From a virus, in IMG/VR virus record IMGVR_UViG_3300048588_000191, positions 1-26,576 of that record: a stretch of DNA of 26,576 bases; one strand, written 5' to 3'. Shown here one piece after another: positions 2,817 to 23,291 of this stretch. The notes beneath the pieces were generated by a model that was not told where the DNA came from, ran no database searches, and was given only the letters and a program-made list of their open reading frames with translations. Numbering within the stretch: the first letter of the stretch is position 1; the number at the start of each line of letters is the position of its first letter. A program made the position numbers and the translations under genes.

Positions 2817-4979
2817 CTACCGCCTCCGCACGATGTTGACCGAAGCGTTGGCCCCGAAGCGTTGCCGCGCCTCTTGCTGGGCACCATACACCACGCGCTG
2901 CACTTCGGGGTTGAGAGCGTCGAAGCCGGGGCCGGTGAGGTAGATATTGACCTCCTGCCCCGGGGCTTGGGCCGCCGCAGATGCGCCGCCGCTGGCCCCC
3001 TGAGCACCGGCCAAGCTACTGCCGCCGCCTCCACCACCGGAGGCCGCACCCAAGGCCGACCACGCGGCGGCAATCGCTCCGAATTTCGCCGCCGCCGCAA
3101 AGTGCCCTGGGGCCTTACCTGCCGTGAACGGATTCAGCGCCGAGACGATGCCGTGCGCCGTCTGCTCTGCCGCGAGGATGAGGTTTTCCTTGGCCTTCGC
3201 CTTGGCCACTTCCCCGAGGCTCCCGCCAATCGCGCCGACCAGGACCGATTGCAGGTTGCTTACCGCGAGGCCGTAGTTGGCCGATTGCTCCTCGGCTTCC
3301 TTCATCGCCTGACGGATCTGTGCGAGCTGGGCAATGTAGCCCTGCATGATCGGGTTCGAGGCGGTCATCCCCGACATGGCGAGGCTGGTCAGCAGCCCTT
3401 CGAGCATCCGGGCCTGATTCCCGAGCGCATCGTACTCATCCCCAAGCGCCGTGACTAGCGTCCCGTGGGCAGCCATCGCGGTATTGAAGTCGGCCACCGC
3501 TTGCTCGGCTTCCGTCAATTCCACTTCCGCGAGCGAGGCGATTTCGTCTGCAATCGCTCGCATGGAGGGGGCTATCGTCTCGTCATTCTGTTCGGCCATC
3601 GCCTTCAGCAGCGATTGCAGGGCCTCCACCCGCGCCTTGGTCATGTCGAAGCTGTCACCCATCGCCTCACTCATGCGCGAGGCCGTGGTCATCGCGGTCT
3701 CATAGTCGGCCAGCGCCTTGGTGAGTGCGCCGACTTCCGTCTTGACCTTCTCGACTTCCTCAGCCGGGGCGGTATCCCCCCCGCCGTTTCCTGACGGCAG
3801 CGGGGGCCGGGAGAAGTCAAACGGCTTGCCTTCCGCGCCGGGGCTAAAGACACGGCCCCCAAAGCGCCCGATGCCTCGGCGGGTCAACGCGGCCCCGCGC
3901 TCTTGGGAGGCTTGCGCCCATTCGTCTATGGCGTTGGTGTTATCCCGGAGCCGCTTGGTGAACTTCTCAATTCCAGCAGCCGCGCCGTCAAATCCAATGA
4001 CCTTGCCCAGCTTCCCGGCCACTTCGAGGACGCCAATGAGGGAGGAGGCAAAGAGGTTGGTGACCCGGACAGCGGAGGCAATCGCCACCCCCAGTACCCC
4101 GGCAATCGTCTCGGTGAAGCCGAGGAATACCCCAATCGCCCCGTCCACCACATCCACCGCGAGCTTAATGGCCCCGATAAAGAGGCGCATCGCTCCGCTG
4201 GCAAAGGCGCTCAGTTCCTTGCTATTGGCTTGCACCCAGAGGACCAAGCCCCGCAAGGCGACAATCAACTGGTCCAGCGCCCCCTTGCCCTCACCACCGG
4301 CAAGGATGGACGTGCCGATCTGTTCCTTGAACTCGGCCCACATATTGTTGACTTGGGCAATCTTCCCCTGGAACGTATCGGCTGCGGAAGTCGCGGCCCC
4401 CATACTCCGCTGGGCCAAGACTTCCAAGCCTTCCTGGGCCGAACTGACCTCAATGCCCATGCGCTTCAGGGGGGTGGTGAGGCCGTTCATCACCTTCCCG
4501 ACCAGATCCACCGCTGGGGCCAGTTCGCCGTTGAAGAACTGGGCGGCGACATTAGCGACCAGCCCCATATTGTTCAGCGAGGCGTCCACGTTGCCGGTGA
4601 CCGTCACCAGCCGATTCAGGGCAATGGCGAAGTCCTCGTCCCCATAGACCGTGGCATCTTGGAAAGCCCCAGCCAAGGCTTCGATTTCGGCCCGGAGTGA
4701 GGCGAAGTCTGCCCCGGTATTCTTGACCGTATTGCCAAGGGACTTGTACGCCTTCTCCGACTCGATAGCCCCACGCACGGCATCGGTCAGGAAATTGGCA
4801 ATCGCCCGACCCGCGAAGATGGCTGCAATAGCCCCAGCCACCCGCTTGGCCATCGCGCCCATGCGGGTCTCAAAGCTACTGGCTGCCTTGTCGGCGCTGT
4901 CCTTCGCATCGTCTTGGAGCTTTGCCGCCGCTCGCTTGTCCAAGACCAGCCGGACGATGCGCTCAATCACGTTAGCCAT
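2817..4979 (-). CDS. Tail tape measure protein
   Basis: A 720-residue mainly helical protein that should span the tail lumen, set tail length and be ejected with the DNA. The N-terminal 1-75 is charged and helical. Residues about 255-330 form a long hydrophobic region with membrane-insertion character. A Gly/Pro linker lies at about 375-405, followed by two homologous coiled-coil units at about 422-485 and 495-563. The C-terminal part is Ala/Gly-rich with a Gly6 run (648-653) and ends NASVNIVRRR. With the family rule of roughly 1.5 angstrom per residue, a tail near 100 nm is expected. It is the longest helical protein in the tail block and follows a frameshifting chaperone pair, the classic arrangement. 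The ATG at 4979 overlaps the chaperone stop as TGATG. Confidence 0.92.
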   Translation of the reverse strand: MANVIERIVRLVLDKRAAAKLQDDAKDSADKAASSFETRMGAMAKRVAGAIAAIFAGRAIANFLTDAVRGAIESEKAYKSLGNTVKNTGADFASLRAEIEALAGAFQDATVYGDEDFAIALNRLVTVTGNVDASLNNMGLVANVAAQFFNGELAPAVDLVGKVMNGLTTPLKRMGIEVSSAQEGLEVLAQRSMGAATSAADTFQGKIAQVNNMWAEFKEQIGTSILAGGEGKGALDQLIVALRGLVLWVQANSKELSAFASGAMRLFIGAIKLAVDVVDGAIGVFLGFTETIAGVLGVAIASAVRVTNLFASSLIGVLEVAGKLGKVIGFDGAAAGIEKFTKRLRDNTNAIDEWAQASQERGAALTRRGIGRFGGRVFSPGAEGKPFDFSRPPLPSGNGGGDTAPAEEVEKVKTEVGALTKALADYETAMTTASRMSEAMGDSFDMTKARVEALQSLLKAMAEQNDETIAPSMRAIADEIASLAEVELTEAEQAVADFNTAMAAHGTLVTALGDEYDALGNQARMLEGLLTSLAMSGMTASNPIMQGYIAQLAQIRQAMKEAEEQSANYGLAVSNLQSVLVGAIGGSLGEVAKAKAKENLILAAEQTAHGIVSALNPFTAGKAPGHFAAAAKFGAIAAAWSALGAASGGGGGGSSLAGAQGASGGASAAAQAPGQEVNIYLTGPGFDALNPEVQRVVYGAQQEARQRFGANASVNIVRRR

Positions 4980-5272
4980 CAGCGCGGCTCCAGACGGCGG
5001 GTGAGGTCACGATGCCACGCGGTATAGTCATCCCCGGCTGCCGCCGCGAGCCGTGCCGCCTCAGCCGAGCGTAGTTGCTCCCGAAGATGCGCCCGGCCCA
5101 GGAGGGCCAAGCCATATTGGAAATGCCGCCACGATAGCGGCTCCCCTGCCGCGACCCATGCCGGGAACGCATGGCAAAAGGTCGCCAGTTCATCTAGGGC
5201 GTCGGCCCGGTAGTCACCACCATCCCCTGCCGGTCGGGGAATCCAACGTTGGCAGTCATCCGGCGCGAGCAA
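4979..5272 (-). CDS. Tail assembly chaperone, frameshift-only extension (T-like)
   Basis: A 97-codon frame in the -1 register relative to the upstream chaperone gene, and overlapping its last 79 bases. It begins with the TTG codon that directly follows the slippery UUUUUUU. I see no ribosome binding site and no good ATG or GTG at its 5' end, so it is most likely made only as the C-terminal part of a 239-residue fusion, as gpT is in lambda gpGT. The segment is helical and rich in Ala, Arg, Asp and Trp, with helices around ALDELATFCHAFPAW and LREQLRSAEAARLA. Its TGA overlaps the tape measure ATG, so the fusion and its presumed client are translated back to back. Confidence 0.8.
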   Translation of the reverse strand: MLAPDDCQRWIPRPAGDGGDYRADALDELATFCHAFPAWVAAGEPLSWRHFQYGLALLGRAHLREQLRSAEAARLAAAAGDDYTAWHRDLTRRLEPR

Positions 5273-5697
5273 AAAAAATCGGTAATCGCCACCACCTCAG
5301 CCTCGGTCGCGGCGCGGAAGTGGTTCCGCGCCAGCCCCAGCCGCTTTGCCCATCGCTGCCACGGGGATGCGGGACGGCAATGCCGCCAGCACAGGTCAGC
5401 CAGTTTCCGCACCGCCCGGAAGTAAGCCCCGGAGCCGTCCGGCGTCAGCAGCAGCCCATCCCCTGCCGCTGCCTGGGCCTCATGCCGCACGGCCAAGAGC
5501 GTCTGCCCCAGCCGCCACGAGACCGGGGGCACCCCATAGGCGTGGCCCCGATAGGTGAAGTAGACCACACCGCCAAGGTCCAAGACCCGCATGAGATTCA
5601 GCGGGGGGCGGGGAGCCTTCGGTCGCGCCCCGACCCGAGGCGCGGCCTGATGCTTGGCCGCGACCTCCGCAGCCGGGACACGGCGAAAGGCGATCAT
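5194..5697 (-). CDS. Tail assembly chaperone, short (G-like) form
   Basis: A 167-residue protein encoded between the major tail and tape measure genes. In lambda-like phages this slot holds gpG, which binds the tape measure protein during tail assembly. The N-terminus is basic (MIAFRRVPAAEVAAK), followed by a mixed segment with YFTYRGHAYGVPP and a helical half. The ATG at 5697 overlaps the TGA of the major tail gene. Codons 141-142 are UUU UUU inside an eight-base U run at 5278-5271. Slipping back one base there joins the first 142 residues to the downstream frame ending at 4979, giving a product of 239 residues. Without slipping, translation continues 25 more codons to the TAG at 5194. The chaperone role is inferred from gene order plus the slip site, since sequence conservation in this family is poor. 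Confidence 0.82.
   Translation of the reverse strand: MIAFRRVPAAEVAAKHQAAPRVGARPKAPRPPLNLMRVLDLGGVVYFTYRGHAYGVPPVSWRLGQTLLAVRHEAQAAAGDGLLLTPDGSGAYFRAVRKLADLCWRHCRPASPWQRWAKRLGLARNHFRAATEAEVVAITDFFCSRRMTANVGFPDRQGMVVTTGPTP
5271..5278 (-). other. Programmed -1 ribosomal frameshift site
   Basis: On the coding strand the zero-frame codons read GAT TTT TTT TGC. The heptamer T TTT TTT (5278-5272) fits the X XXY YYZ rule for -1 slippage, and both tRNAs can re-pair fully after slipping. The next codon in the new frame is TTG at 5272. A small CCCC/GGGG stem lies about 32 bases downstream, too far to be a typical stimulator. The run is striking in such GC-rich DNA. Confidence 0.85.
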
Positions 5698-6371
5698 CAG
5701 CTACCACCGTCCAGATCAATCCCGGCGTCATCCGGGTCGCCAATGGTGTAGAGGTGGTGGCCTTCCGGCATCGTCGGGTGATGCAGGAGGGTGAAGGTCA
5801 CTTCCTCGATGTTCTTCCGGGCGTCACCCGCCCCACCGCGATAGGAACGCGGGGGCGTGGTGAAGACGCCACGCCATGCCCAGAACGATCCCGCCAGCAA
5901 GGCCAGCTGGGCCGAGTCGAGCGCCACGCCATCCAGCGTCCAGTTGCCGCCCGAACTGGCGAGGGTGTAGTCGCTCACGATCCCGGCATTGTCGGTCTTC
6001 AGGAACAGCGCCTCCGGCAGGATGACCAGGGTATGCTCCAGCGGGGCCGACCGGCGCGAGCGCCCAGCCGACGCCTGGCCGGTGGGGGTGACCAACGCAA
6101 TCAGCGTGGGGTCGGTGAGGTACATCGGGAAGGTGATGACCGGCGCTTCCCCGGTGTAGTCCATCTCCACCGGCGCGGGGCCGGTGAGCTCCGGGGTCGT
6201 GAGCGCGGCCATCTCGGGATTGGTCGCAATACTGATGTCCCCCTCGGTGTCCCCGAGGTGCGTCAGCGTCAGCGGCCCGTCGCCGGGATTCCATCGCGGG
6301 GCGCGGAACACCACGCCACGCCCCAGGGAGCGCAGCACGGTGGACAGGTCAAGCAGGTTGTAACTGGGCAT
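5697..6371 (-). CDS. Major tail (tube) protein
   Basis: A 224-residue protein expected to polymerise into the tail tube. It lies between the tail terminator and chaperone genes, the conserved position of the major tail protein. The sequence is beta-rich: LTLTHLGDTEGDISIATNPE near the start, MDYTGEAPVITFPMYLTDP in the middle, and a C-terminal strand KNIEEVTFTLLHHP, a layout seen in tail-tube folds. The ATG at 6371 has a perfect AGGAGG ribosome binding site at 6385-6380 that overlaps the previous gene's stop codon. This is one of the few good sites in the tail block and fits a protein needed in many copies. No Ig-like decoration domain is evident. The family assignment rests on position and fold impression. 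Confidence 0.82.
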   Translation of the reverse strand: MPSYNLLDLSTVLRSLGRGVVFRAPRWNPGDGPLTLTHLGDTEGDISIATNPEMAALTTPELTGPAPVEMDYTGEAPVITFPMYLTDPTLIALVTPTGQASAGRSRRSAPLEHTLVILPEALFLKTDNAGIVSDYTLASSGGNWTLDGVALDSAQLALLAGSFWAWRGVFTTPPRSYRGGAGDARKNIEEVTFTLLHHPTMPEGHHLYTIGDPDDAGIDLDGGS

Positions 6372-7228: not shown

Positions 7229-7566
7229 ATGGACCCCACAAAGGCACGGCAGCGGATTTCCAAGTGGTGCCCTCGGGGCCTGGTCGGGGGGCCATCCACC
7301 TCCCATTGGCCCGGCGCATCGGGGCCGCTGGTCAGCACAATGACATCCAAGGGCCGAATATCCCAGCCGGGGATAGAGTACATGACCCGATCCCCAGTGG
7401 GGGTGAGGCCGGGGCCAGCATCCCCGAGCAAGGCGGCGGGGCGGTTCACCGCGACCCGCACACTCGACACCTTGGCATAGCTCACCGTAACGGACCGCAT
7501 CGCTCCGGTCGTTTCGGTGCGGCGGTACACATCCGCCGTATGGTTCAGCAGATGTTTGACCCCCAT
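7225..7566 (-). CDS. Head-tail stopper (head closure) protein
   Basis: A 113-residue beta-rich protein in the position of SPP1 gp16 / HK97 gp7-type proteins that plug the connector after packaging. It opens MGVKHLLNHTADVYRRTE, like the short N-terminal strand and helix of stopper proteins. It continues with strands (VSSVRVAVNRPA), the segment TPTGDRVMYSIPGWDIRPLD, which resembles the 'd.iv..g..y.V' core of this family, and a final strand (HLEIRCRAF). The ATG at 7566 overlaps the adaptor gene's TGA as TGATG. The frame extends further upstream, but that part overlaps the adaptor gene. Confidence 0.78.
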   Translation of the reverse strand: MGVKHLLNHTADVYRRTETTGAMRSVTVSYAKVSSVRVAVNRPAALLGDAGPGLTPTGDRVMYSIPGWDIRPLDVIVLTSGPDAPGQWEVDGPPTRPRGHHLEIRCRAFVGSI

Positions 7567-8114
7567 CAGACCCGGAGCCTCATCCACCGAGTCGCCACCG
7601 CTTGCCATGCCGCGAGGTTTTCCACATTGCCCCGGGTATAGCTGTAATCCCCCAGCGTCTCGGAGCGCATGTTGCCATTGATCCCGGCGTCGTGACTGGC
7701 CCACGCCATCCCGACCATTTCCTTGACCAGCTGCTGAAGTTCCTGCGGCCCTTCCCCGGTCGCCCAGCCCACGGGATAGGAGACCTTCACCGACAGCCGC
7801 CCCCACGGGAAACAGGTCCGGTGGTAGATATGCCAGCCGTCCAGCCGCCAATCCGCCGTGTCGAGGACCGCCCACTCATCGAATACATCCCGGCGCGTCG
7901 AAACCGTGACCACCCCATCGGTGGGGGTCTGGTCAAGGCTCAGGCGATCCGTGCCGCCACAGAACAAGTCTTCCCGCGTGGTCGGCTCCCCCAAGTAGAT
8001 GCCGCCAAGCATCCGCTCCAGGGTGGAGGTGGCCCGGGCGATCAGGGTACGGATCGTCCCGGTGTCCTCATCCTGAAGGCAGAGCCAGGTGCGGACCTCG
8101 CTGGCGCTAATCAC
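7566..8114 (-). CDS. Head-tail adaptor (connector) protein
   Basis: A 182-residue protein related to the gp6 / gp15-type connector proteins that dock under the portal. The N-terminal EVRTWLCLQDEDTGTIRTLI followed by a helix (ARATSTLERMLGG) matches the family's 'two short helices, then amphipathic helix' start. A beta stretch lies in the middle (TDGVVTVSTRRDVFD). Near the end MRSETLGDYSYTRG resembles the E.(I/L)GDYS motif of these proteins. The GTG start at 8114 overlaps the end of the glycosyltransferase gene by eight bases and has a GGGG element just upstream. The open frame continues to 8231 but only as an overlap of the upstream gene. Confidence 0.83.
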   Translation of the reverse strand: MISASEVRTWLCLQDEDTGTIRTLIARATSTLERMLGGIYLGEPTTREDLFCGGTDRLSLDQTPTDGVVTVSTRRDVFDEWAVLDTADWRLDGWHIYHRTCFPWGRLSVKVSYPVGWATGEGPQELQQLVKEMVGMAWASHDAGINGNMRSETLGDYSYTRGNVENLAAWQAVATRWMRLRV

Positions 8115-9930
8115 CCAGCACCCCACGCACTTGGGCGGTGGTGAAGCCGTTCGGCCCCGGCACGATCCCGGCAAAATCCTCCGGTCCCAGCCCGTGCTCG
8201 GTGGCCAAGGCTTCAGCCTTCGCGCTGGCAAAACGCAGCGGCTCAGGCGTCAGCACGGCCTTGTTTTCCACAGCCGGGGCCATCGCGCCGTGCTCAATCG
8301 TCGTGAGCATCTTGCGGCCCTGTCGCCGCGCTTCCTGCCCCGCCTTGTAGGCGGCGGCGGCGATCCGGCGTCCTTCGGCGGCGGCTTCCCGGGCGGCGGT
8401 GTTGCGGAGGTGCTGCTGTTCGAGCTGGCGCATACGGAAAAAGTCGCCTCGGTTGCTGGTGATTTCCTGGCGCATGGCTTGGCCTCGCTCCCGATGGGTT
8501 TTCAGTCGCCACGTTGGGTTGGAATATGGGTCACTCCCCGCTGTCGCGCCACGCTGCACAAGTGCCCACATGGCGATGCGGTCTCCTGCCGCACTCAGGT
8601 AGTGGGCCATCAGCCCACGGTTGCGCCGGTAATCATTGCCTCGGCGGGTTTTCTGCGGCGGGTGCCAGAGATGCACCAACGGCTGGGGCAAGCGTTGGTG
8701 CGGCCCGGCTAGCGTGTCGAGAATGAGGGCCAGTGTCTCATCTTCACAGCCCCAGCCGTCAAAGTTGGTGGGCATGCCCCCGATGGCGTCATAAGTGGCG
8801 CGAGACACCACGACGGTCCCGCCCCCGGCAAAGCCCTTGTAAGCCGCTCGCTGTAACCCTTCAGTCGGGGCAGCAAACGGCCCTCCGGGATCGGTGGCCA
8901 GCAGCCGGATCGTCTGGGCTTCGCTCAGTCGGTGTACGTCACCATGCGGCACGACCCACGGCGCACCGGCCCGGACCCGGGCGACGGCCTCCTCCAAGGC
9001 TTCTGGGGGGTGGATGCAATCGGCATCGGCCAAGATCAGCACCTCAGCCCGGCATGGCTCCAGCGCGAGCGCGAGGGCGCGGCCCTTATTCCACAACCCA
9101 GGGGCGAGGGTGCCCTCATGCACGGCCCAGTCGGGATGCAGCTTTGCCCAGCGACGGCGGACCCACTGATAGGCTCGGTCCCGTGGCCCCCCGTCCGGCA
9201 TCCGGGGCACGAGAAAGGCCACCCCGCGATCCTGCCGTCTGAGGCTGGTGAACTTGGCCCCCGTCCATGCTGCTTCCCAGCCGCTCTTGCGGCGGGTGTT
9301 GAAAACGCTGTCGGCATGCTGGCGATACCAGAAACAGGGCCGCACGGTGGGGACGATCTTCACCCCCAGATGGCCAAAGCCAATCCAGAGGGCGGTATCC
9401 CAGCCCCCGATGAGATCCGTGCGGTAGGGGGACCGCTCCCAGAGACTGCGCTTGAAGGGGGACACCCCAGAGCAGGGGGTGGGATTCTCTAGGACGCCCT
9501 TGCCCTGGCTGCTTTTGTAGAGCTTGGTGCGGTTCTTCGGCCCAGCGGCCAAGTCCCCCGACCGCTCATAGCCCAGCGCGATAATGTCCCCGTGCGGCAT
9601 CAGGGCGGCAATGTCCCCGAGGGCGTGGGGCATCAGCATATCATCGCTGTCGAAGTGCATCACCCATTCGGTGTCTGACAGCGCCACCGCGCGGTTCCGG
9701 GCCTCCCCGAAATCCAGCCGCTCGGCGTCGTGCTGGCGCGTGACCCGGATACCAGCGGCCCGGAGGATGGCCTCGGCTTCGATCCCTGCCGAGCGGTCTG
9801 CCGTGCTGCCGTGCGTGACGATCCCGACCATAGCCGGGCGCATCCGGTTAGCCACGATGCTTTCGGCCCAGTCCCGGAGATACTGGCCGTAACCCGAGCA
9901 GCTAGTGACGATGGCGAGGTTTAGGGCCAC
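8107..9930 (-). CDS. Two-domain family 2-type glycosyltransferase with C-terminal E3-binding-like domain
   Basis: A 607-residue protein with two GT-A-type transferase domains. Domain 1 (about 1-230) has a nucleotide-sugar/metal motif HFDSDD at 92-97. Domain 2 (about 235-430) has LADADCIHPPE at 300-310 and GWGCEDETL at 392-400, the latter typical of galactosyltransferase-like C-terminal motifs. A long charged helical stretch (480-545, Arg/Ala/Glu-rich) follows. The last 40 residues (about 566-606) resemble the peripheral-subunit/E3-binding fold: a helix with ALATEHGLGPEDF, then PGPNGFTTAQVRGVL. The GTG at 9930 overlaps the methyltransferase stop. It lies in the capsid operon, so a role in decorating the virion is likely but not proven; modification of host surface glycan or of DNA are alternatives. 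Confidence 0.83.
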   Translation of the reverse strand: MALNLAIVTSCSGYGQYLRDWAESIVANRMRPAMVGIVTHGSTADRSAGIEAEAILRAAGIRVTRQHDAERLDFGEARNRAVALSDTEWVMHFDSDDMLMPHALGDIAALMPHGDIIALGYERSGDLAAGPKNRTKLYKSSQGKGVLENPTPCSGVSPFKRSLWERSPYRTDLIGGWDTALWIGFGHLGVKIVPTVRPCFWYRQHADSVFNTRRKSGWEAAWTGAKFTSLRRQDRGVAFLVPRMPDGGPRDRAYQWVRRRWAKLHPDWAVHEGTLAPGLWNKGRALALALEPCRAEVLILADADCIHPPEALEEAVARVRAGAPWVVPHGDVHRLSEAQTIRLLATDPGGPFAAPTEGLQRAAYKGFAGGGTVVVSRATYDAIGGMPTNFDGWGCEDETLALILDTLAGPHQRLPQPLVHLWHPPQKTRRGNDYRRNRGLMAHYLSAAGDRIAMWALVQRGATAGSDPYSNPTWRLKTHRERGQAMRQEITSNRGDFFRMRQLEQQHLRNTAAREAAAEGRRIAAAAYKAGQEARRQGRKMLTTIEHGAMAPAVENKAVLTPEPLRFASAKAEALATEHGLGPEDFAGIVPGPNGFTTAQVRGVLGD

Positions 9931-10496
9931 CGGATCACCAGAGGGTAGGGGCCACGCTCCAACCGGCCCCCCAGTCGGTTCACCACCCGCGCCACGCCGG
10001 GATTGTTCTTCGTCTCGTAATCATCAAACGCCACCACCGCGCCCGGGGCCAGCCGGGGTGACCACGCAGCCCAGTCCTTGGCTACGTCCGCCTCGGTATG
10101 GGAGCCGTCCACATAGAGCAGCCCGATACGGGGGCCAGTCCACGCCTTCGCCACGTCGGCGCTGAAGCCCTTGTGCGGGGTGACCCATCCCAACACCCCG
10201 GCCCGGGCGATCTGGGCCTGAAACGCCTTGAAGGTGTCCGGTCGGTCAAAGCCGAAACGGCCCCCCGCATTGCCCGGGGTGTCCCAGGGGTCCACCGCGT
10301 GAACAGCGGCCCGGAGGCCGTTCATCGCGCCGGTCGCTAGATAGCTGGTGGACTTCCCCTTGTAGCTGCCAATCTCGACAATGGCTTGCTCAGGGGGGAC
10401 GAAGCTAGCTAGCTCGGCCAGCCGCTCCCCCACCGCGTCAGGGATGAGGCCTTCAAGGCTACTGAGCAAGGCCCGTTGCGCGGGGGTTAGCGACAC
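9921..10496 (-). CDS. Class I SAM-dependent methyltransferase
   Basis: A 191-residue Rossmann-type methyltransferase of the small-molecule / sugar-modifying kind (Methyltransf_24-like). Motif I is VEIGSYKGKST (40-50), the acidic end of strand 2 is HAVDPWD (66-72), and the motif IV region is LLYVDGSHTEADV (126-138), followed by LAPGAVVAFDDY (149-160). The DGSH signature is frequent in methyltransferases that act with glycosyltransferases on nucleotide sugars or glycans. It lies between two glycosyltransferase genes and overlaps both by 10 bases. The GTG at 10496 was chosen because of that overlap. O-methylation of a transferred sugar is an inference from context, not from the sequence alone. 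Confidence 0.84.
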   Translation of the reverse strand: MSLTPAQRALLSSLEGLIPDAVGERLAELASFVPPEQAIVEIGSYKGKSTSYLATGAMNGLRAAVHAVDPWDTPGNAGGRFGFDRPDTFKAFQAQIARAGVLGWVTPHKGFSADVAKAWTGPRIGLLYVDGSHTEADVAKDWAAWSPRLAPGAVVAFDDYETKNNPGVARVVNRLGGRLERGPYPLVIRWP

Positions 10497-11188
10497 TTCA
10501 ACACCTCCCAGCCATAGGCTGCCCCGTAGGGGGCGAGGATTGCGTCCCGGTCGGCAAAGCCCTTGGCCTTCTGTTCAGCCCAGATTGTCGGCAGATCGCT
10601 GCCATCCAGGAGATAGGTAAACTCCCCAGCCCCGTGCGGGACTTGCCAGATGGGGATGCGCTGGCGCTGTGCCCAGACGGCGAGGTGCGCCTCCTCCAAG
10701 GATTTCCCGGGCACGACAGGCGGCACGTTCAGCCGGGTATCGAAGGCCAGCACCGCCGCGCATGGGTAGTTGACCCATGTCCCTGGCGTGGTGCCGTTGA
10801 AGTGCCAGCGGTTGAGCGGCGCGTTGAACCGCGATTTGGTAGGATGCAGAATCCGCCCTGACCAGGTAATGATGGCGCGGCCCTTCCACCGCTTGAGCCA
10901 GCGGTCGGTGCGCTCCACATAGTCGGCGGGATAGATCAGGTCATCATCGCAGCCCAGATACAGCCCCTGCCACTGGTCAGCCCAGCGGAGTTTGGCCGCG
11001 CTGCCGTGCTTATCGGGGACACAGACCCACTCATTCGCCAGTTCCTTCACACACTCCGGGGGGTCGGCCATGTCGTGGCAGACGACCCGCAACTCATCCA
11101 CCTGAGGGCGTAGGGATGCGAGGGCTTGGGCGAGGGCTGCCGTGCGTCCGGGCATCGTGGGAATCACGGCAAGGGTCCGAGGGGCCAT
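10487..11188 (-). CDS. Glycosyltransferase, GT-A type
   Basis: A 233-residue glycosyltransferase-like protein. It begins with a first beta-strand of GT-A type (RTLAVIPTMPGR). A DxD-type metal/nucleotide-sugar motif sits in LYLGCDDDLIYP (77-88, Asp81-83), and the acceptor side has WSGRILHPTKSRF. The protein is short for family 2 (usually 250-350 residues) and is compact, with no membrane helix. Its ATG at 11188 has a GGGAG element about ten bases upstream and follows a strong hairpin after the capsid gene, so its expression may be lower than that of capsid. It is first in the transferase cassette and overlaps the methyltransferase gene. Confidence 0.78.
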   Translation of the reverse strand: MAPRTLAVIPTMPGRTAALAQALASLRPQVDELRVVCHDMADPPECVKELANEWVCVPDKHGSAAKLRWADQWQGLYLGCDDDLIYPADYVERTDRWLKRWKGRAIITWSGRILHPTKSRFNAPLNRWHFNGTTPGTWVNYPCAAVLAFDTRLNVPPVVPGKSLEEAHLAVWAQRQRIPIWQVPHGAGEFTYLLDGSDLPTIWAEQKAKGFADRDAILAPYGAAYGWEVLKCR

Positions 11189-11234
11189 GCACGAAACTCC
11201 CGGCAGCAGAAAAATGGTAGCGGAGGGGTGTGAC

Positions 11235-11270
11235 AGGGGAGGGGGAGGGCCGAAGCCCCACCCCTCCCCC
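11235..11270 (-). terminator. UUCG-capped hairpin after the capsid gene
   Basis: On the coding strand an AGGGGAGGGG-type arm pairs with its complement around a UUCG tetraloop closed by C-G. The stem is about 16 pairs with one mismatch and two G-U pairs. It begins seven bases after the capsid stop codon (11278-11280). No U-run follows directly; five U residues come only about 20 bases later (11214-11210). It may be a partial terminator that lowers readthrough into the transferase cassette, or a structure that protects the 3' end of capsid mRNA. Confidence 0.72.
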
Positions 11271-11277
11271 TTCCTGC

Positions 11278-12675
11278 TTACGACCCACCAGCCTCGGTGG
11301 TGAAGTGGGCGAACGCCTTGGGGGCGTAGATCGGGAGCGCGATCCGCTCCTCAGCCAGGATCGTCCGCATGTTGCGGATGAGCTGGTCATCCACCAGACC
11401 GACCTGCACGGTGAGGTCCATCCGGTCGATGATCTGGGCACCCATGTTCGTGTCCGCCACCAGCACCTCACGACGGCCCACCTCACCGGCCACCGTGGAC
11501 TCCATGCCGACCGACTCGACCACCCGGAGACCCCAGAGACGCGAGCCGTTGTCGGTGGTGACGACCGCCCAGACGTAGCGATCATCCGACCCCTTCTCCA
11601 GGAGAATGGTCTCCCAGTCGCGGGGATCGCACATCACGGCGTTGGCCTGATACCCCGCCACGAAGATGTCCGTGATGCCCATGCGGACGGCATCAATCAG
11701 CGTGTGGGTGGAGCCGTTGTAGCGGCCATTGCTGGCAATGTCCTGGATGCCGTTGACATTCAGGATGCCCTCCAGCTCCAGCCCGATCCCGGTCCCGTAC
11801 ATGATGCTCTGCTCTTCCTTGAGCTGCACCTTGTAGCGGAGCCGCCCGTCAATCAGGCCACGGAGCTGCGCCCAATCCTCGAGCTGCTGATTCTGCACCG
11901 GCATCCACCCGGCGATGGTCCGCACCGGCGCGGACTGGAGCGAGTACTCCACCGCCAGTTCGGCCTTGGGCTGGCCCGGCGTCTGCACACCTGCCGAGCC
12001 GGTGATGCCCTCTTCCCGGACGTACTCCACCGCATTGCTGGTGGTGCGGCCCGTGCTCATCACGTCGCGGAGGTTGATGCGCTGGTCCGCCGTGACCTGG
12101 GCCAGCCGCCCGAGGCGCTCCGGCTCGATGACGCCCGTTCCGAGGGTCGGCACCGCCTTGGACTGCGGCGACCGGAGGAACTCATCGAACATCTTCCGCT
12201 GGGTGCGGGTGAGCGGAATCAGCGGCTCGCCGTGCTGGCCCTGGTGGATGTTCTTCCCGTGCATCGCCGCGTGCGACAGCTGAATGACCGCGACATGGCC
12301 ACGGGCATAGCTCGTCTTGGCGAACTCCTGAAACTCCTGCGAGGCAATGACCATGTCACCGAGGGTGACGTAGCCGCCGATCTCGCGGTCATTCGGGCTG
12401 TCGCCCTTGGCGTGGCTGCCGGAGTTCGGCAGCGTCGGGTCGGGGATCTCGCGGAGCTGCCGACCACGGGCCAGCACCTGCGAGGCCTTCGTCTCGCTCT
12501 CGATCTCGTTCTGGATGGCCATCGCCTCGTGGGCGAGTTCATCGCGCTTCTTGGCATCGGCCCGACCGTCATCGGTTTCGCCCATGCGCTTGCCTTCCCA
12601 CCGAGAATTGATCTTCTCAATCTCGCCCGTGATCTTGTCCAGATCGCGGTTCAGGGTGCCCAGCTTGTCCGTCAT
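11278..12675 (-). CDS. HK97-type major capsid protein
   Basis: A 465-residue capsid subunit that forms the icosahedral shell. Residues 1 to about 110 are highly charged and helical (MTDKLGTLNRDLDKITGEIE), matching a delta domain that acts as an internal scaffold and is cut by the protease. The rest carries family features: MYGTGIGLELEGILN (292-306), which matches the HK97-fold G.G...p.GIL loop, then a conserved TLIDAVRMGI helix and the strand-rich C-terminus with DLTVQVGLVDDQLIRNM. No separate scaffold gene is present, consistent with the delta domain. The ATG at 12675 has a CGGAGTG ribosome binding site nine bases upstream. It follows the protease gene with a 17-base gap, one of the few gaps in the operon. 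Confidence 0.94.
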   Translation of the reverse strand: MTDKLGTLNRDLDKITGEIEKINSRWEGKRMGETDDGRADAKKRDELAHEAMAIQNEIESETKASQVLARGRQLREIPDPTLPNSGSHAKGDSPNDREIGGYVTLGDMVIASQEFQEFAKTSYARGHVAVIQLSHAAMHGKNIHQGQHGEPLIPLTRTQRKMFDEFLRSPQSKAVPTLGTGVIEPERLGRLAQVTADQRINLRDVMSTGRTTSNAVEYVREEGITGSAGVQTPGQPKAELAVEYSLQSAPVRTIAGWMPVQNQQLEDWAQLRGLIDGRLRYKVQLKEEQSIMYGTGIGLELEGILNVNGIQDIASNGRYNGSTHTLIDAVRMGITDIFVAGYQANAVMCDPRDWETILLEKGSDDRYVWAVVTTDNGSRLWGLRVVESVGMESTVAGEVGRREVLVADTNMGAQIIDRMDLTVQVGLVDDQLIRNMRTILAEERIALPIYAPKAFAHFTTEAGGS

Positions 12676-18745: not shown

Positions 18746-19089
18746 CGTTGTACGCGGATGGGGAGCCGGTGGAATACCGGGCGAGCTTTGCGGGGACGCG
18801 CCCGTTGCGGCTGGCAGGGCGGGTGATCGTCGGCCCAGCGACTTCGGTGGCCTCGCTGGTGGGGCCGACCGTCGAGCGGCGGCGGGTCGAACGGCCTGAG
18901 CCATGCCCGGTGACTGAGGGGGCGTCATGGATCACGGAACGCCTGTATGAGACGATGCCGGAGGCCCGGGAGGAGCGGCTGAAGCGGCTGCTGATGATTC
19001 TCGACTGCCAGGGCACCACGGCGGAAGTGGTGGCGCAGGTGGGCTGGGTCGTGACCCAGCGTGGCAAGACGCTGGGGTGGTGGCCGTGA
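18742..19089 (+). CDS. Hypothetical protein before the helicase-methyltransferase
   Basis: A 115-residue protein of unknown role. The first half is beta-like (MTLYADGEPVEYRASFAGTR, then LAGRVIVGPATSVASLVGP), the second is helical (TERLYETMPEAREERLKRLL), with a Trp-rich end. GTG at 18742 overlaps the previous TGA as GTGA, and the TGA at 19087 overlaps the start of the helicase-methyltransferase. The tight coupling suggests it is co-expressed with that enzyme, perhaps as a partner. Confidence 0.6.
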   Translation: MTLYADGEPVEYRASFAGTRPLRLAGRVIVGPATSVASLVGPTVERRRVERPEPCPVTEGASWITERLYETMPEAREERLKRLLMILDCQGTTAEVVAQVGWVVTQRGKTLGWWP

Positions 19090-21305
19090 GCGACGCATAC
19101 TCTGCATTGCTGGCCGGAAAGGCGATGGTGGACCCTGCTACCGGGATCACCAATCCACCGGATCTGCATCCGATGCTATTCCCCTTCCAATCCGATATTA
19201 CCCGGTGGGCGTTGCGGCGTGGCCGGGCCGCGATCTTCGCGGATTGCGGGATGGGCAAGACGTTCATGCAGCTCGAATGGGCACGGGTGGTGACTGAGCA
19301 CACCGGCAAGCCCGTGCTGATTCTGGCCCCGTTGGCCGTGTCTCGGCAGACCATCCGCGAAGGGGCGAAGCTCGGGCTGACCGTCACCCATGCCAATAGC
19401 CAGGATGACGTGACCTGCGGCATCGTCATCACCAACTACGAGCGGATGGACCGATTCACCCCGTCGGCGTTTGGCGGGATCGTGCTGGATGAGTCATCCA
19501 TTCTCAAGAGCTTTACCGGGGCCACATCGTCGGCCCTGATTGCCAACTGGCAGCAGACGGCATTTCGGCTGGCCTGTACCGCTACCCCAGCCCCGAATGA
19601 CTATATGGAGTTGGGTACGCATGCCGAGTTTGTGGGCGCGATGAGTCGCCCGGAAATGCTGGCGTCGTTCTTCGTGCATGACGGGGGCGAAACGCAGAAG
19701 TGGCGGCTCCGAGGCCACGCCAATACCGATTTCTGGCGCTGGCTCTGTTCGTGGGCGGTGATGATCCGCACCCCGTCTGACCTGGGCTACAGTGACGAGG
19801 GGTTCGTCTTGCCGCCCTACCACTTGCACCAGCATACCGTGGAAGGGGTCGCGCCGGAGGGGGAGCTGTTCGCCATTGAAGCGCAGACCCTTGGCGAGCG
19901 GCTGGCGGCACGGCGGGAAAGCATTGACGAGCGGGCGGCTCAATGCGCGGCGTTGGTGAATGACTCCACCGAGCCGTGGATCGTCTGGTGCAACCTCAAC
20001 GCCGAAGCCGACGCCTTGCGTCGGCTCATTCCCGGCGCGGTGGAAGTGCGCGGGTCTGACGACCCGGAGACCAAGGAAAAGAACCTGAACGGCTTCTCCG
20101 CCGGGGCGTATCGGGTGCTGATTTCCAAGCCGAGCATTGCCGGGTTCGGCATGAACTGGCAGCACTGCCCGAATGTCGCATTCGTGGGGCTGTCGGATTC
20201 ATGGGAGGCATACTATCAGGCGGTGCGGCGGTGCTGGCGGTTCGGACAGACCCGCCCCGTCCATGTCCACATGATCGCCGCCGATACCGAGGGGGCCGTC
20301 GTGGCTAACATCAAACGTAAGGACGCCGATGCGGCGGCCCTTGCCCAGCAGATGGTGGAGCATATGCACGAACTCAATGCCGAGTCGGTCCGGGGGGCGG
20401 CACGCCGCCAGGATGACTACACGCGGGAAACGAAGTCTGCCGATGGGTGGACGCTTCATCTCGGGGATTGCGTGGACGTGCTCCGCGAGATGCCCAGCGA
20501 GTCGGTCCATTTCTGCGTCTTTTCCCCGCCGTTCGCCTCGCTCTACACCTATTCGGCCAGTGACCGCGACATGGGCAACTGCCGGGACGCCGATGAGTTT
20601 TACGAACACTTCCGCTTTGCCGTGGTCGAACTGTTGCGGGTGCTGAAGCCCGGACGGCTCGTGTCATTCCACTGCATGAACCTACCCACGTCCAAGGTCC
20701 GCGATGGCGTCATTGGGTTGCGCGACTTCCGGGGGGAGTTGATCCGGATGTTCGAGGAGGCCGGGTTCATCTATCACAGCGAGGTCGTCATCTGGAAAGA
20801 CCCCGTGACCGCGATGCAGCGCACCAAGGCACTCGGGCTGTTGCACAAGACGATCCGGAATGACAGCAGTATGTCCCGGCAGGGGATTCCTGACTATCTG
20901 GTGACGATGCGGAAGCCCGGCGATAATCCGGAGCCGATCAGTCATACGGCGGCGGAGTTCCCGGTCACCCTCTGGCAGCGGTACGCCAGTCCCGTCTGGA
21001 TGGATATCAACCCGAGCGATACCCTGGAGTTCCGGACGGTGCGGGAAGATGATGACGAGCGGCATATCGCCCCGCTTCAACTCGAAGTCATCCGCCGCGC
21101 CGTGCAGTTGTGGAGTGCTCCCGGCGATCTGGTCCTGTCGCCGTTCGCTGGCATCGGGTCGGAAGGATGGGTCAGTATCCAAGAGGGACGGCGGTTCGTG
21201 GGGGTCGAACTCAAGCGAGCCTATTGGGAGCGAGCGGCCCGTAACCTTGCCGCTGCCCACGCCCATACCGAGCAAGATCTCTTTTCCACGGCAGATGCGC
21301 CGTGA
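19086..21305 (+). CDS. SNF2-type helicase fused to a DNA amino-methyltransferase
   Basis: A 739-residue protein with two parts. Residues about 25-410 are an SNF2/SF2 translocase: motif I DCGMGKT (53-59), motif II LDESS (135-139), motif III ACTATPAP (164-171), and a C-terminal RecA lobe with SKPSIAGFGMNWQ (347-359) and motif VI QAVRRCWRFGQ (378-388). Residues about 455-725 are a beta-class DNA methyltransferase: SPPF motif IV (480-483) comes first, then SAM-binding motif I FAGIGS (687-692). Such SPPF enzymes make N4-methylcytosine or N6-methyladenine. There is no nuclease domain, so it is not a complete restriction enzyme. GTG at 19086 overlaps the upstream TGA; two in-frame GTG codons (19077 and 19080) could extend it slightly. 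Confidence 0.92.
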   Translation: MSDAYSALLAGKAMVDPATGITNPPDLHPMLFPFQSDITRWALRRGRAAIFADCGMGKTFMQLEWARVVTEHTGKPVLILAPLAVSRQTIREGAKLGLTVTHANSQDDVTCGIVITNYERMDRFTPSAFGGIVLDESSILKSFTGATSSALIANWQQTAFRLACTATPAPNDYMELGTHAEFVGAMSRPEMLASFFVHDGGETQKWRLRGHANTDFWRWLCSWAVMIRTPSDLGYSDEGFVLPPYHLHQHTVEGVAPEGELFAIEAQTLGERLAARRESIDERAAQCAALVNDSTEPWIVWCNLNAEADALRRLIPGAVEVRGSDDPETKEKNLNGFSAGAYRVLISKPSIAGFGMNWQHCPNVAFVGLSDSWEAYYQAVRRCWRFGQTRPVHVHMIAADTEGAVVANIKRKDADAAALAQQMVEHMHELNAESVRGAARRQDDYTRETKSADGWTLHLGDCVDVLREMPSESVHFCVFSPPFASLYTYSASDRDMGNCRDADEFYEHFRFAVVELLRVLKPGRLVSFHCMNLPTSKVRDGVIGLRDFRGELIRMFEEAGFIYHSEVVIWKDPVTAMQRTKALGLLHKTIRNDSSMSRQGIPDYLVTMRKPGDNPEPISHTAAEFPVTLWQRYASPVWMDINPSDTLEFRTVREDDDERHIAPLQLEVIRRAVQLWSAPGDLVLSPFAGIGSEGWVSIQEGRRFVGVELKRAYWERAARNLAAAHAHTEQDLFSTADAP

Positions 21306-21614: not shown

Positions 21615-21781
21615 CCTACCCCCGCGATACGCTCTGTGACGGCTGCGGCAAGATGGTGCCCGCCCATACCACCACCGAACGAGTCGGGGGCCTGAGTGTG
21701 GAAATCTTCTGCCGGGACTGCGTTCGTGACGCCACCTATGGGGAAGGGCCAGACCAGGAGGACGATGATGAGGGCACTTGA
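21611..21781 (+). CDS. Small zinc-ribbon protein
   Basis: A 56-residue protein with two CxxC pairs: LCDGCGK (9-12) and FCRDC (34-37), about 22 residues apart, the usual spacing of a rubredoxin-like zinc ribbon. The tail is acidic (GEGPDQEDDDEGT). The ATG at 21611 overlaps the upstream TGA as ATGA. Its own last codons contain the AGGAGG used to start the cytosine methyltransferase, so it is nested in that gene's translation signal. Function is unknown; such ribbons often mediate protein or nucleic-acid contacts. Confidence 0.66.
   Translation: MTYPRDTLCDGCGKMVPAHTTTERVGGLSVEIFCRDCVRDATYGEGPDQEDDDEGT
21756..21761 (+). promoter_or_regulatory. Perfect ribosome binding site of the cytosine methyltransferase gene
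   Basis: AGGAGG lies six bases before the ATG at 21768 and only three before the tandem ATG at 21765. This decides the start at 21768. It lies within the end of the zinc-ribbon gene. Few other genes in this operon have such a site. Confidence 0.8.
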
Positions 21782-23291
21782 GCTATTCGCCGGGGCCGGT
21801 GGTATGGCCCTTGGGATGCACCGCGCCGGGATGGAGACCGCTGGGCTGGTGGAGTGGGATGCCCACGCCCAGCGGGTGTTGGCGGCGCGGTTCCCCGGTG
21901 TGCCGCTGTATGGGGATGTGCAGGAGTTCGATGGGGCCGCGTTTGTGCAGGAGCATGGCCCAGTGGATCTGGTGAGCGGGGGAAGCCCCTGCCAGGATCT
22001 CAGTGTTGCTGGGAAGCGGGAAGGCCTTGGGGGTGCCCGGTCGGGCTTGTTCCACCAACAGATGCGGATTTGGGAGGAGACGGGTGCCACCTATTGCCTG
22101 TGGGAAAATGTCCTCGGGGCCTTGTCGAGCGCCAAGGGTGCCGACTTCGCCGCTGTCCTATCGGCCTTCGTGGGAAGAGATGTCGCTGTCCCTCTTCGGG
22201 GATGGCGAGGAGGCGCGGGCGTGGTCAGTGGACCAGCCGGAGTCGCCGCGTGGCGCGTACTGGATGCCCAGTTCTTCGGGGTTCCGCAGCGCCGCCGCCG
22301 TGTCTTTGTCCTCGGTGCTCGTCCCGGCGGCGTTGATCCCGCCTGGGTACTACTTGAGCGCGAAAGCCTGTGCGGGGATTTTGCGGAGAGCGGAGAAGCG
22401 CGGGAAGGCGTTGCCGGAGCGACTGCTGGTGGCGCTAGAGGCGGTCGCTGGTGGGATGGGTCCGACATAGCGCCGACGCTGGACGCGAGCGCCCTGGTCA
22501 AGCGCCAGACGATGCCGGATAAGGGGCGGTTCCCCTGTGTGATGGACTACGCTTCCCCTGTGGCCCCGAGCCTCCCGGCCTCCGGTGCGGGGACTGCCCG
22601 CACCGGGAACGAGCGGACAGAGGCCGAGCTGGTGGTGGTGCAGGCCGTGGACAAGCAGACGGGCCAAGTCACCGAGGGCATCACCGCGACCCTGAAGACG
22701 GATCTGGCGCACCAGATGGGGCCAGTGGTGGCACAGGGGACTATCGGCTGGGACGACGAGTGCAACGCCTCCGGGGAGATTATGGGAACCCTGCAATCGG
22801 GCGGCAAGGCATCCGGTTCAAGGCGCTATGGCGTGGTCGCCATCCACGAGAACCAGCGCGGCGAGGTGCGCGAGGGCGTTGTCGCCAGCGCCCTCGCGGG
22901 AGGGGGCGGCAAGCCGGGGCAGGGATACGCTGCCGTCCTCGCCGGTCGCCCCCGCCGCCTGATGCCGGTGGAGTGCGAGCGACTGATGGGATGGGAAGAC
23001 GGGTGGACGCTGGTGCCATTCCTCTCGGGTAGCCACAAAGCCAAGTGCCGGGAGCATCCGGCAACAATGCAGGAAGTCGAGGACGCCGATGGGAAAATCG
23101 TAGAACTACTCATCCGCGTCCCTATCGTGGTCAGCCTCGGGCACCCAGTCATCATGCCGTGCTGTGGTGCCAAGCTCAAGCCAAAGCCGATGGCAGACGC
23201 GCACCGCTATAAGATGTGCGGCAATGGGGTCGTGAGTCATGTCGCGGAATGGATCGGGCGCGAGCTGCTGGCAGGGCACTATGACGAGTGA
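21768..23291 (+). CDS. C5-cytosine DNA methyltransferase (Dcm type)
   Basis: A 507-residue enzyme that transfers a methyl group to C5 of cytosine in DNA. Motif I is FAGAGGMALG (7-16), the catalytic Cys is in GGSPCQDLSVAG (motif IV, Cys75), WENV (112-115) is motif VI, QRRRRVFVLG is motif VIII (174-183), and the C-terminal CGNGVVSHV (484-492) matches motif X. The variable region of about 230 residues between VIII and the C-terminal core probably reads the target. A Cys-containing insertion of about 55 residues precedes motif X. The nearby fused methyltransferase suggests both act on phage DNA against restriction. The gene overlaps the next one by 11 bases. Confidence 0.93.
   Translation: MRALELFAGAGGMALGMHRAGMETAGLVEWDAHAQRVLAARFPGVPLYGDVQEFDGAAFVQEHGPVDLVSGGSPCQDLSVAGKREGLGGARSGLFHQQMRIWEETGATYCLWENVLGALSSAKGADFAAVLSAFVGRDVAVPLRGWRGGAGVVSGPAGVAAWRVLDAQFFGVPQRRRRVFVLGARPGGVDPAWVLLERESLCGDFAESGEAREGVAGATAGGARGGRWWDGSDIAPTLDASALVKRQTMPDKGRFPCVMDYASPVAPSLPASGAGTARTGNERTEAELVVVQAVDKQTGQVTEGITATLKTDLAHQMGPVVAQGTIGWDDECNASGEIMGTLQSGGKASGSRRYGVVAIHENQRGEVREGVVASALAGGGGKPGQGYAAVLAGRPRRLMPVECERLMGWEDGWTLVPFLSGSHKAKCREHPATMQEVEDADGKIVELLIRVPIVVSLGHPVIMPCCGAKLKPKPMADAHRYKMCGNGVVSHVAEWIGRELLAGHYDE

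Follow-up and report, generated by a model that had tools for sequence, protein, structure and literature searches.

The window analysed here is the whole of a 26.6-kb virus record (IMGVR_UViG_3300048588_000191; 26,576 nucleotides, an incomplete genome), and it carries, between the genes for the major capsid protein and the head-tail adaptor, a cassette of two glycosyltransferases (GTs), referred to as GT1 and GT2, and one methyltransferase (MT). This cassette probably builds a short O-linked glycan, itself probably methylated, on the virion proteins of the phage. Virion glycosylation, already suggested by the initial annotation, is the reading best supported by the homology of GT2 to gp109 of the Mycobacterium phage Che8 and by the Ser/Thr residues shared at the C-terminal tips of structural proteins, from which the function is inferred. 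The features on which the argument draws are as follows.

11278..12675, minus strand: major capsid protein (HK97 fold, PF05065; Pfam, 8e-36), with the C-terminus ...TTEAGGS as proposed acceptor
11189..11277, minus strand: intergenic gap of 89 nt between the capsid and GT1 genes, with a GC-rich hairpin (sequence and fold)
10487..11188, minus strand: GT1, GT-A glycosyltransferase of 233 residues, KfiA/heparosan-synthase-like (GT45-like; phmmer against the PDB)
9921..10496, minus strand: MT, class I S-adenosylmethionine (SAM) methyltransferase of 191 residues, Methyltransf_24 (Pfam)
8107..9930, minus strand: GT2, 607 residues, two GT-A domains followed by a helical linker and a C-terminal domain (Pfam and PHROG)
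8107..8229, minus strand: PSBD/E3-binding-like domain, the last 40 residues of GT2 (profile comparison and model)
7566..8114, minus strand: head-tail adaptor, gp6-like (phrog_442, 1e-18)
5697..6371, minus strand: probable major tail (tail-tube) protein, with the C-terminus ...IDLDGGS as second proposed acceptor (placed by synteny only)

The three overlapping genes of the initial annotation are present exactly as open reading frames at these coordinates, and its placement of them between capsid and adaptor genes is confirmed by the Pfam and PHROG matches of the two flanks. The GT1/MT and MT/GT2 frames each overlap by 10 nt, and the adaptor start codon (GTG at 8114) overlaps the GT2 stop. Genes for a terminase, a portal-MuF fusion and an S78 protease lie upstream of the cassette together with the capsid gene (Pfam, PHROG), and the window thus shows the arrangement of a cluster J-type island, with GTs and a methyltransferase between the major capsid and head-tail adaptor genes. 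The description of GT2 as a two-domain GT held for its two catalytic domains but overlooked a third part, residues ~435–607. A foreign origin of the cassette was rejected on composition, as its GC content and GC content at third codon positions match those of the neighbouring genes. The hairpin after the capsid gene (−44.1 kcal/mol) has an ordinary folding energy compared with shuffled sequences (z −1.4) and its stem has no T run directly after it, and it was rejected as a terminator. The tail-tube candidate, for which no family match was obtained, is placed between the tail terminator and the tape measure.

Virion glycosylation function was reportedly shown in mycobacteriophages by Freeman in 2023 (via citing papers), and in the literature found it is demonstrated, among tailed phages, for Mycobacterium phages only. 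One paper reports glycans at the C-termini of the capsid and tail-tube subunits in Mycobacterium phages (PMC12619734), and another reports glycans on the Che8 capsid (PMC11256854). In cluster J phages, 8–10 genes including GTs and methyltransferases were described in 2013 between capsid and connector, with gp16 of phage Omega as a two-domain GT (PMC3706429). Between capsid and adaptor, the cluster J phage Thibault carries a kinase-like gene, a methyltransferase gene and several GT genes. Tweety has a kinase-methyltransferase-GT run near the genome end, and Che8 has three GT genes near its genome end.

GT2 links the window to these phages. Both of its catalytic domains (residues 5–213 and 237–434) are of the GT-A type, with Pfam matches to Glycos_transf_2 (2e-14) and Glyco_transf_7C (2e-7), and the acidic catalytic-type motifs HFDSDD, ADADC, and GWGxEDE are largely invariant among eight homologues. 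The predicted model has a mean pLDDT of 80.5, and its top Foldseek match is the chondroitin polymerase K4CP. Domain 1 matches Thibault gp14 (38.6%, 3e-38) and Tweety gp104, and domain 2 (residues 237–423) matches Che8 gp109 (24%, 4e-9) as well as Thibault gp16; the window encodes, in its second GT2 domain, a homologue of a GT from a glycosylated phage. Judged by these matches, GT2 is the counterpart of Thibault gp14 and gp16 joined in one chain.

A search based on the capsid returned seven uncultured relatives (L008–L014, 52–57% identity) and the partial L021, and a search based on GT2 added L032, L035 and others. Comparable cassettes, consisting of GTs usually accompanied by methyltransferases and with other enzymes swapped in, were found in the head block of all nine readable uncultured relatives (L008–L014, L032, L035). 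GT and/or methyltransferase genes lie inside the capsid-to-adaptor interval in L008–L014 and L032, where the L010 contig stops before the adaptor, and the cassette directly follows the adaptor in L035. The two-domain GT is the commonest element (L008–L012, L032, L035), and the variable elements comprise GT9, a GT32-like Gly_transf_sug, Methyltransf_24, Methyltransf_23, an FkbM-type enzyme and a P-loop-like protein. The more distant L004 has a methyltransferase and two GTs, related to both GT2 domains, in its tail block. Among Pseudomonas phages, Psp6 carries a GT9 and a methyltransferase between capsid and connector and D3 carries such a pair just after head closure; the L013 GT9 and methyltransferase have homologues in D3 orf12/13 and in the Psp6 pair (40–43%). 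No description of the function of the D3 and Psp6 pairs was present in the literature found. The initial annotation had expected a methyl step to be rare, which these genomes do not support, as a methyltransferase sits with GTs in cluster J, D3, Psp6 and every uncultured relative read except L008; the first small gene of L009 was counted as a methyltransferase by eye, with no such match in Pfam. The search for the same block beside other capsid genes, also proposed there, returned comparable capsid-side cassettes with exchanged enzymes and without a GT1 homologue.

Several genes in these genomes deserve separate mention. Two P-loop-like proteins with the motif ASIPRSGxTYL (L008, 9416–10027; L012, 10068–10631) have at best weak sulfotransferase similarity; they are encoded close to where Thibault and Tweety have their kinase-like genes, which they do not detectably resemble, and could add a charged group to a glycan. 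In L032, a fibre-like protein with CBM_5_12-like and collagen-like parts (4355–5254) and a virion-structural protein (5251–6015, phrog_10356) are encoded between capsid and cassette and are possibly head fibres. Between capsid and adaptor of D3, orf7 (L038 4704–5162) bears the label alpha-2,3-sialyltransferase as annotated in the record; if right, the label would fit a head-block glycan set. Two GTDB genome scans, with the capsid and GT2 alignments, gave no relative from which a host could be assigned, and assignment through capsid and portal matches to named phages was rejected because these are too distant (about 24–35% identity among the matches listed).

Because the reported glycans are located at C-termini, the C-terminal residues of structural proteins were compared. 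In the window the capsid ends in ...EAGGS and the probable tail-tube protein in ...LDGGS, both with a hydroxyl residue at the tip, and the Che8 counterparts end in ...KTGS and ...SDGS. The capsid protein is Ser/Thr-ended in 11 of 11 genomes with a visible cassette (the window, L008–L014, L032, L035 and the distant L004), and also in L021, on which no cassette is visible. The tail-tube homologues are Ser-ended in six of six cases, as is the L004 candidate. Neither Ser nor Thr is the last residue of any of the nine cassette-free capsid homologues (Klebsiella phi12.4, Pseudomonas phi2, Sinorhizobium Aussie and NV1.1.1, Moraxella Mcat17, Arthrobacter Scuttle, Mesorhizobium P1, L022, and L024/L025), where cassette-free denotes the lack of annotated or detectable GTs near the capsid in records of which several are sparsely annotated. 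The capsid and tail proteins of TM4 end in Ala and Val, respectively, and of the remaining structural proteins in the clade, among which GT2 was counted, 14 of 70 are Ser/Thr-ended. Fisher tests on the C-terminal counts, which include L021, gave values of 3e-6 and 5e-10 that are too optimistic because the sequences are related. An origin of the 'GGS' tips as an artefact of overlap with a Shine-Dalgarno sequence is hardly tenable for the capsid gene, since in the window and most relatives a gap precedes the next gene and the terminal Ser codons mix TCN and AGY (TCG, TCC, AGC); it may play some part in the tail protein and the head-tail stopper, as the next gene there often overlaps. The Ser/Thr tip is therefore a strong lead rather than a proven sequon, and we infer that these terminal residues carry the glycan.

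Several observations weigh against glycosylation of the virion at these tips. The counts are not independent, the sequences being related, and the cassette-free set is small. The Thibault capsid ends in Phe and the D3 tail protein in Ala, although both are cassette phages. The head-tail stopper is also Ser-ended (...GS/AS) in five of seven genomes (L008, L009, L011, L012, L032), which may reflect overlap with a ribosome-binding sequence or a further acceptor. The link to Che8 is weak (24%, one domain), and the Che8 GT cluster has no annotated methyltransferase. GT1 has no homologues in phage records or IMG/VR, and the clade is represented by sequence alone, with no isolated virion.

GT1 had no matches in Pfam, PHROG or NCBIfam. 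Its best matches among PDB sequences are heparosan synthase B (8vh7, 3e-7) and KfiA (5z8b, 6e-5) in phmmer searches, and it carries a DDD motif within GCDDDLIYP. MT belongs to Methyltransf_24 (PF13578; 3e-24, 86.4 bits against a gathering score of 26.3 in Pfam), and its nearest solved relative in phmmer searches of the PDB is 6g7d (5e-7), which we take to be MeT1. This enzyme 1-O-methylates sugar in the methylmannose polysaccharides of mycobacteria (PMC9883506). MT is also 38% identical to half of a methyltransferase fusion of L010 (9014–9946), which has, in its C-terminal third, a match to PF01982 (CTP-dependent riboflavin kinase, DUF120; 3e-14); this unusual protein lies beside GTs and has homologues of similar length in L032 and L035. 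The MT family is labelled 'DNA methyltransferase' in PHROG (PHROG 2675) even though it is Methyltransf_24, and homologues of MT carry the same label in mycobacteriophage records such as NC_028979 (Cheetobro) and NC_051591 (Taquito); on Methyltransf_24 homologues these labels may be wrong.

The overlooked third part of GT2 is comprised of an Arg/Ala-rich, mostly helical stretch followed by ~40 residues, FASAKAEALATEHGLGPEDFAGIVPGPNGFTTAQVRGVLGD. This element also ends the L008 homologue of GT2 and separate small proteins of L008, L011, and L032. It found nothing in Pfam or among PDB sequences, and the L008 copy found nothing among named phages. The hhalign comparison with PSBDs gave a probability of 80, with four E2 sequences as reference, and the domain is predicted by AlphaFold with a pLDDT of 85. 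With VIA-align the best eight rows are all PSBDs, with Z up to 4.2, and PSBDs also rank first with Foldseek, at insignificant E-values. The domain therefore likely adopts a PSBD-like fold. It was not classed as an E2 component of a 2-oxoacid dehydrogenase because the protein that carries it is either a GT or a small one from the head locus. The simplest history would be the fusion of such a small head-locus protein onto GT2, and the domain might serve as a tether.

These elements can be combined into a provisional model, in which the acceptor, the sugar identities, the order of reactions, the methyl position, the role of the GT2 tail and the benefit are all proposals. GT1 and both GT2 domains would act as soluble enzymes that draw on the nucleotide sugars of the host and attach one sugar after another to the Ser/Thr residues at the free C-termini of the capsid and major tail proteins, and MT would O-methylate one of these sugars. 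With their translation coupled to that of the adaptor, the enzymes would be available during virion assembly, where the PSBD-like tail may hold GT2 on the head or on an assembly partner, and the likely benefit would be a shield or an altered particle surface. A wider and rather doubtful proposal is that the Ser/Thr tip of capsid and tail-tube proteins serves unrelated tailed phages generally as a portable acceptor signal for virion glycosylation and that, in this clade, a PSBD-like domain taken over from a head-locus protein docks a GT at the assembling head, which would let the methylated glycan be built in place.

It is unlikely that the cassette instead alters the surface glycan of the host, in serotype conversion or superinfection exclusion. 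Phage GTs are well known in such roles, and GT1 and GT2 resemble capsule-polymer synthases; however, Pfam and PHROG revealed neither a flippase nor a bactoprenol GT next to the cassette, and no transmembrane-like stretch is present in GT1, MT or GT2. The cassette belongs to the late head operon, where it is coupled to the adaptor gene, and not to a lysogeny region, and its homologues come from phages with virion glycosylation. This argument is tempered by the ability of cytosolic GTs to build lipid-linked glycans. An acceptor in another part of the virion, such as a head fibre, a decoration protein, the stopper or a small protein with the GT2 tail domain, seems quite improbable. The L032 genes between capsid and cassette, the Ser-ended stoppers and the small proteins beside the cassette in L008, L010, L011, L012 and L032 would suit such an acceptor, whereas the window has neither a fibre gene nor a separate small protein at the cassette, and the conservation of C-terminal Ser/Thr is most complete in the capsid and tail tube.

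We consider it very unlikely that the GTs and MT hypermodify bases of the phage DNA. The PHROG name of the MT family would agree with such a role, and the phage probably protects its own DNA by methylation, through two genes divergent from the structural operon:

19077–21305, plus strand: helicase fused to an N6/N4 DNA methylase
21696–23291, plus strand: C5 DNA methylase

DNA protection may, however, already be served by these two enzymes. Examination of genes in the incomplete 26.6 kb gave no base hydroxymethylase or base kinase, the GTs have homologues among the head-block GTs of other phages, and MT is a Methyltransf_24 protein and not a member of a DNA methylase family. The host-surface and DNA-hypermodification alternatives, both offered in the initial annotation, gained no positive support.

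For glycosylation of the virion, both the placement of the island (2013) and the function in Mycobacterium phages (2023) are already known. What is new is the link of placement and function in an uncultured lineage outside the known mycobacteriophages, together with a GT that bears a PSBD-like tail domain, a GT1 that resembles KfiA, a set of exchangeable genes and the correlation with Ser/Thr tips. Cassettes of this kind recur in the lineage, where methyltransferases are a repeated element and GT9, GT32-like and P-loop genes replace one another, and related GT9 and methyltransferase pairs occur in cultured Pseudomonas phages. This suggests that more phages have decorated virions than has been documented so far. 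Ser or Thr at the C-terminal tip could provide a cheap predictor from sequence.

Compared with K4CP and the heparosan synthases, GT2 likewise has two GT-A domains per chain and GT1 is KfiA-like, but the identity is only about 11–14%, the second GT2 domain is GT7C-like and the window has no capsule context. MeT1 is the closest solved relative of MT by sequence, a likeness at the family level only. D3 and Psp6 share with the window a GT and methyltransferase pair in the head-neck block and Ser-ended capsid proteins, but have GT9 instead of GT-A enzymes and no homology to the three proteins of the window itself. Che8 has a GT homologous to GT2 domain 2 and Ser-ended capsid and tail-tube proteins, as in the window. 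Its GT genes are at the far end of the genome and have no annotated methyltransferase next to them, whereas in the window the methyltransferase is included, the genes belong to the head operon and one protein joins two GT domains to a PSBD-like tail. The Thibault island differs in an extra kinase-like gene, in having more GTs, in a methyltransferase that matches the L010 enzyme and not MT, and in the lack of a Thibault match to GT1. Its gp14 and gp16 are nevertheless homologous to the GT2 domains, and in the cluster J phages Thibault and Omega the GTs and a SAM methyltransferase occupy the same place as in the window.

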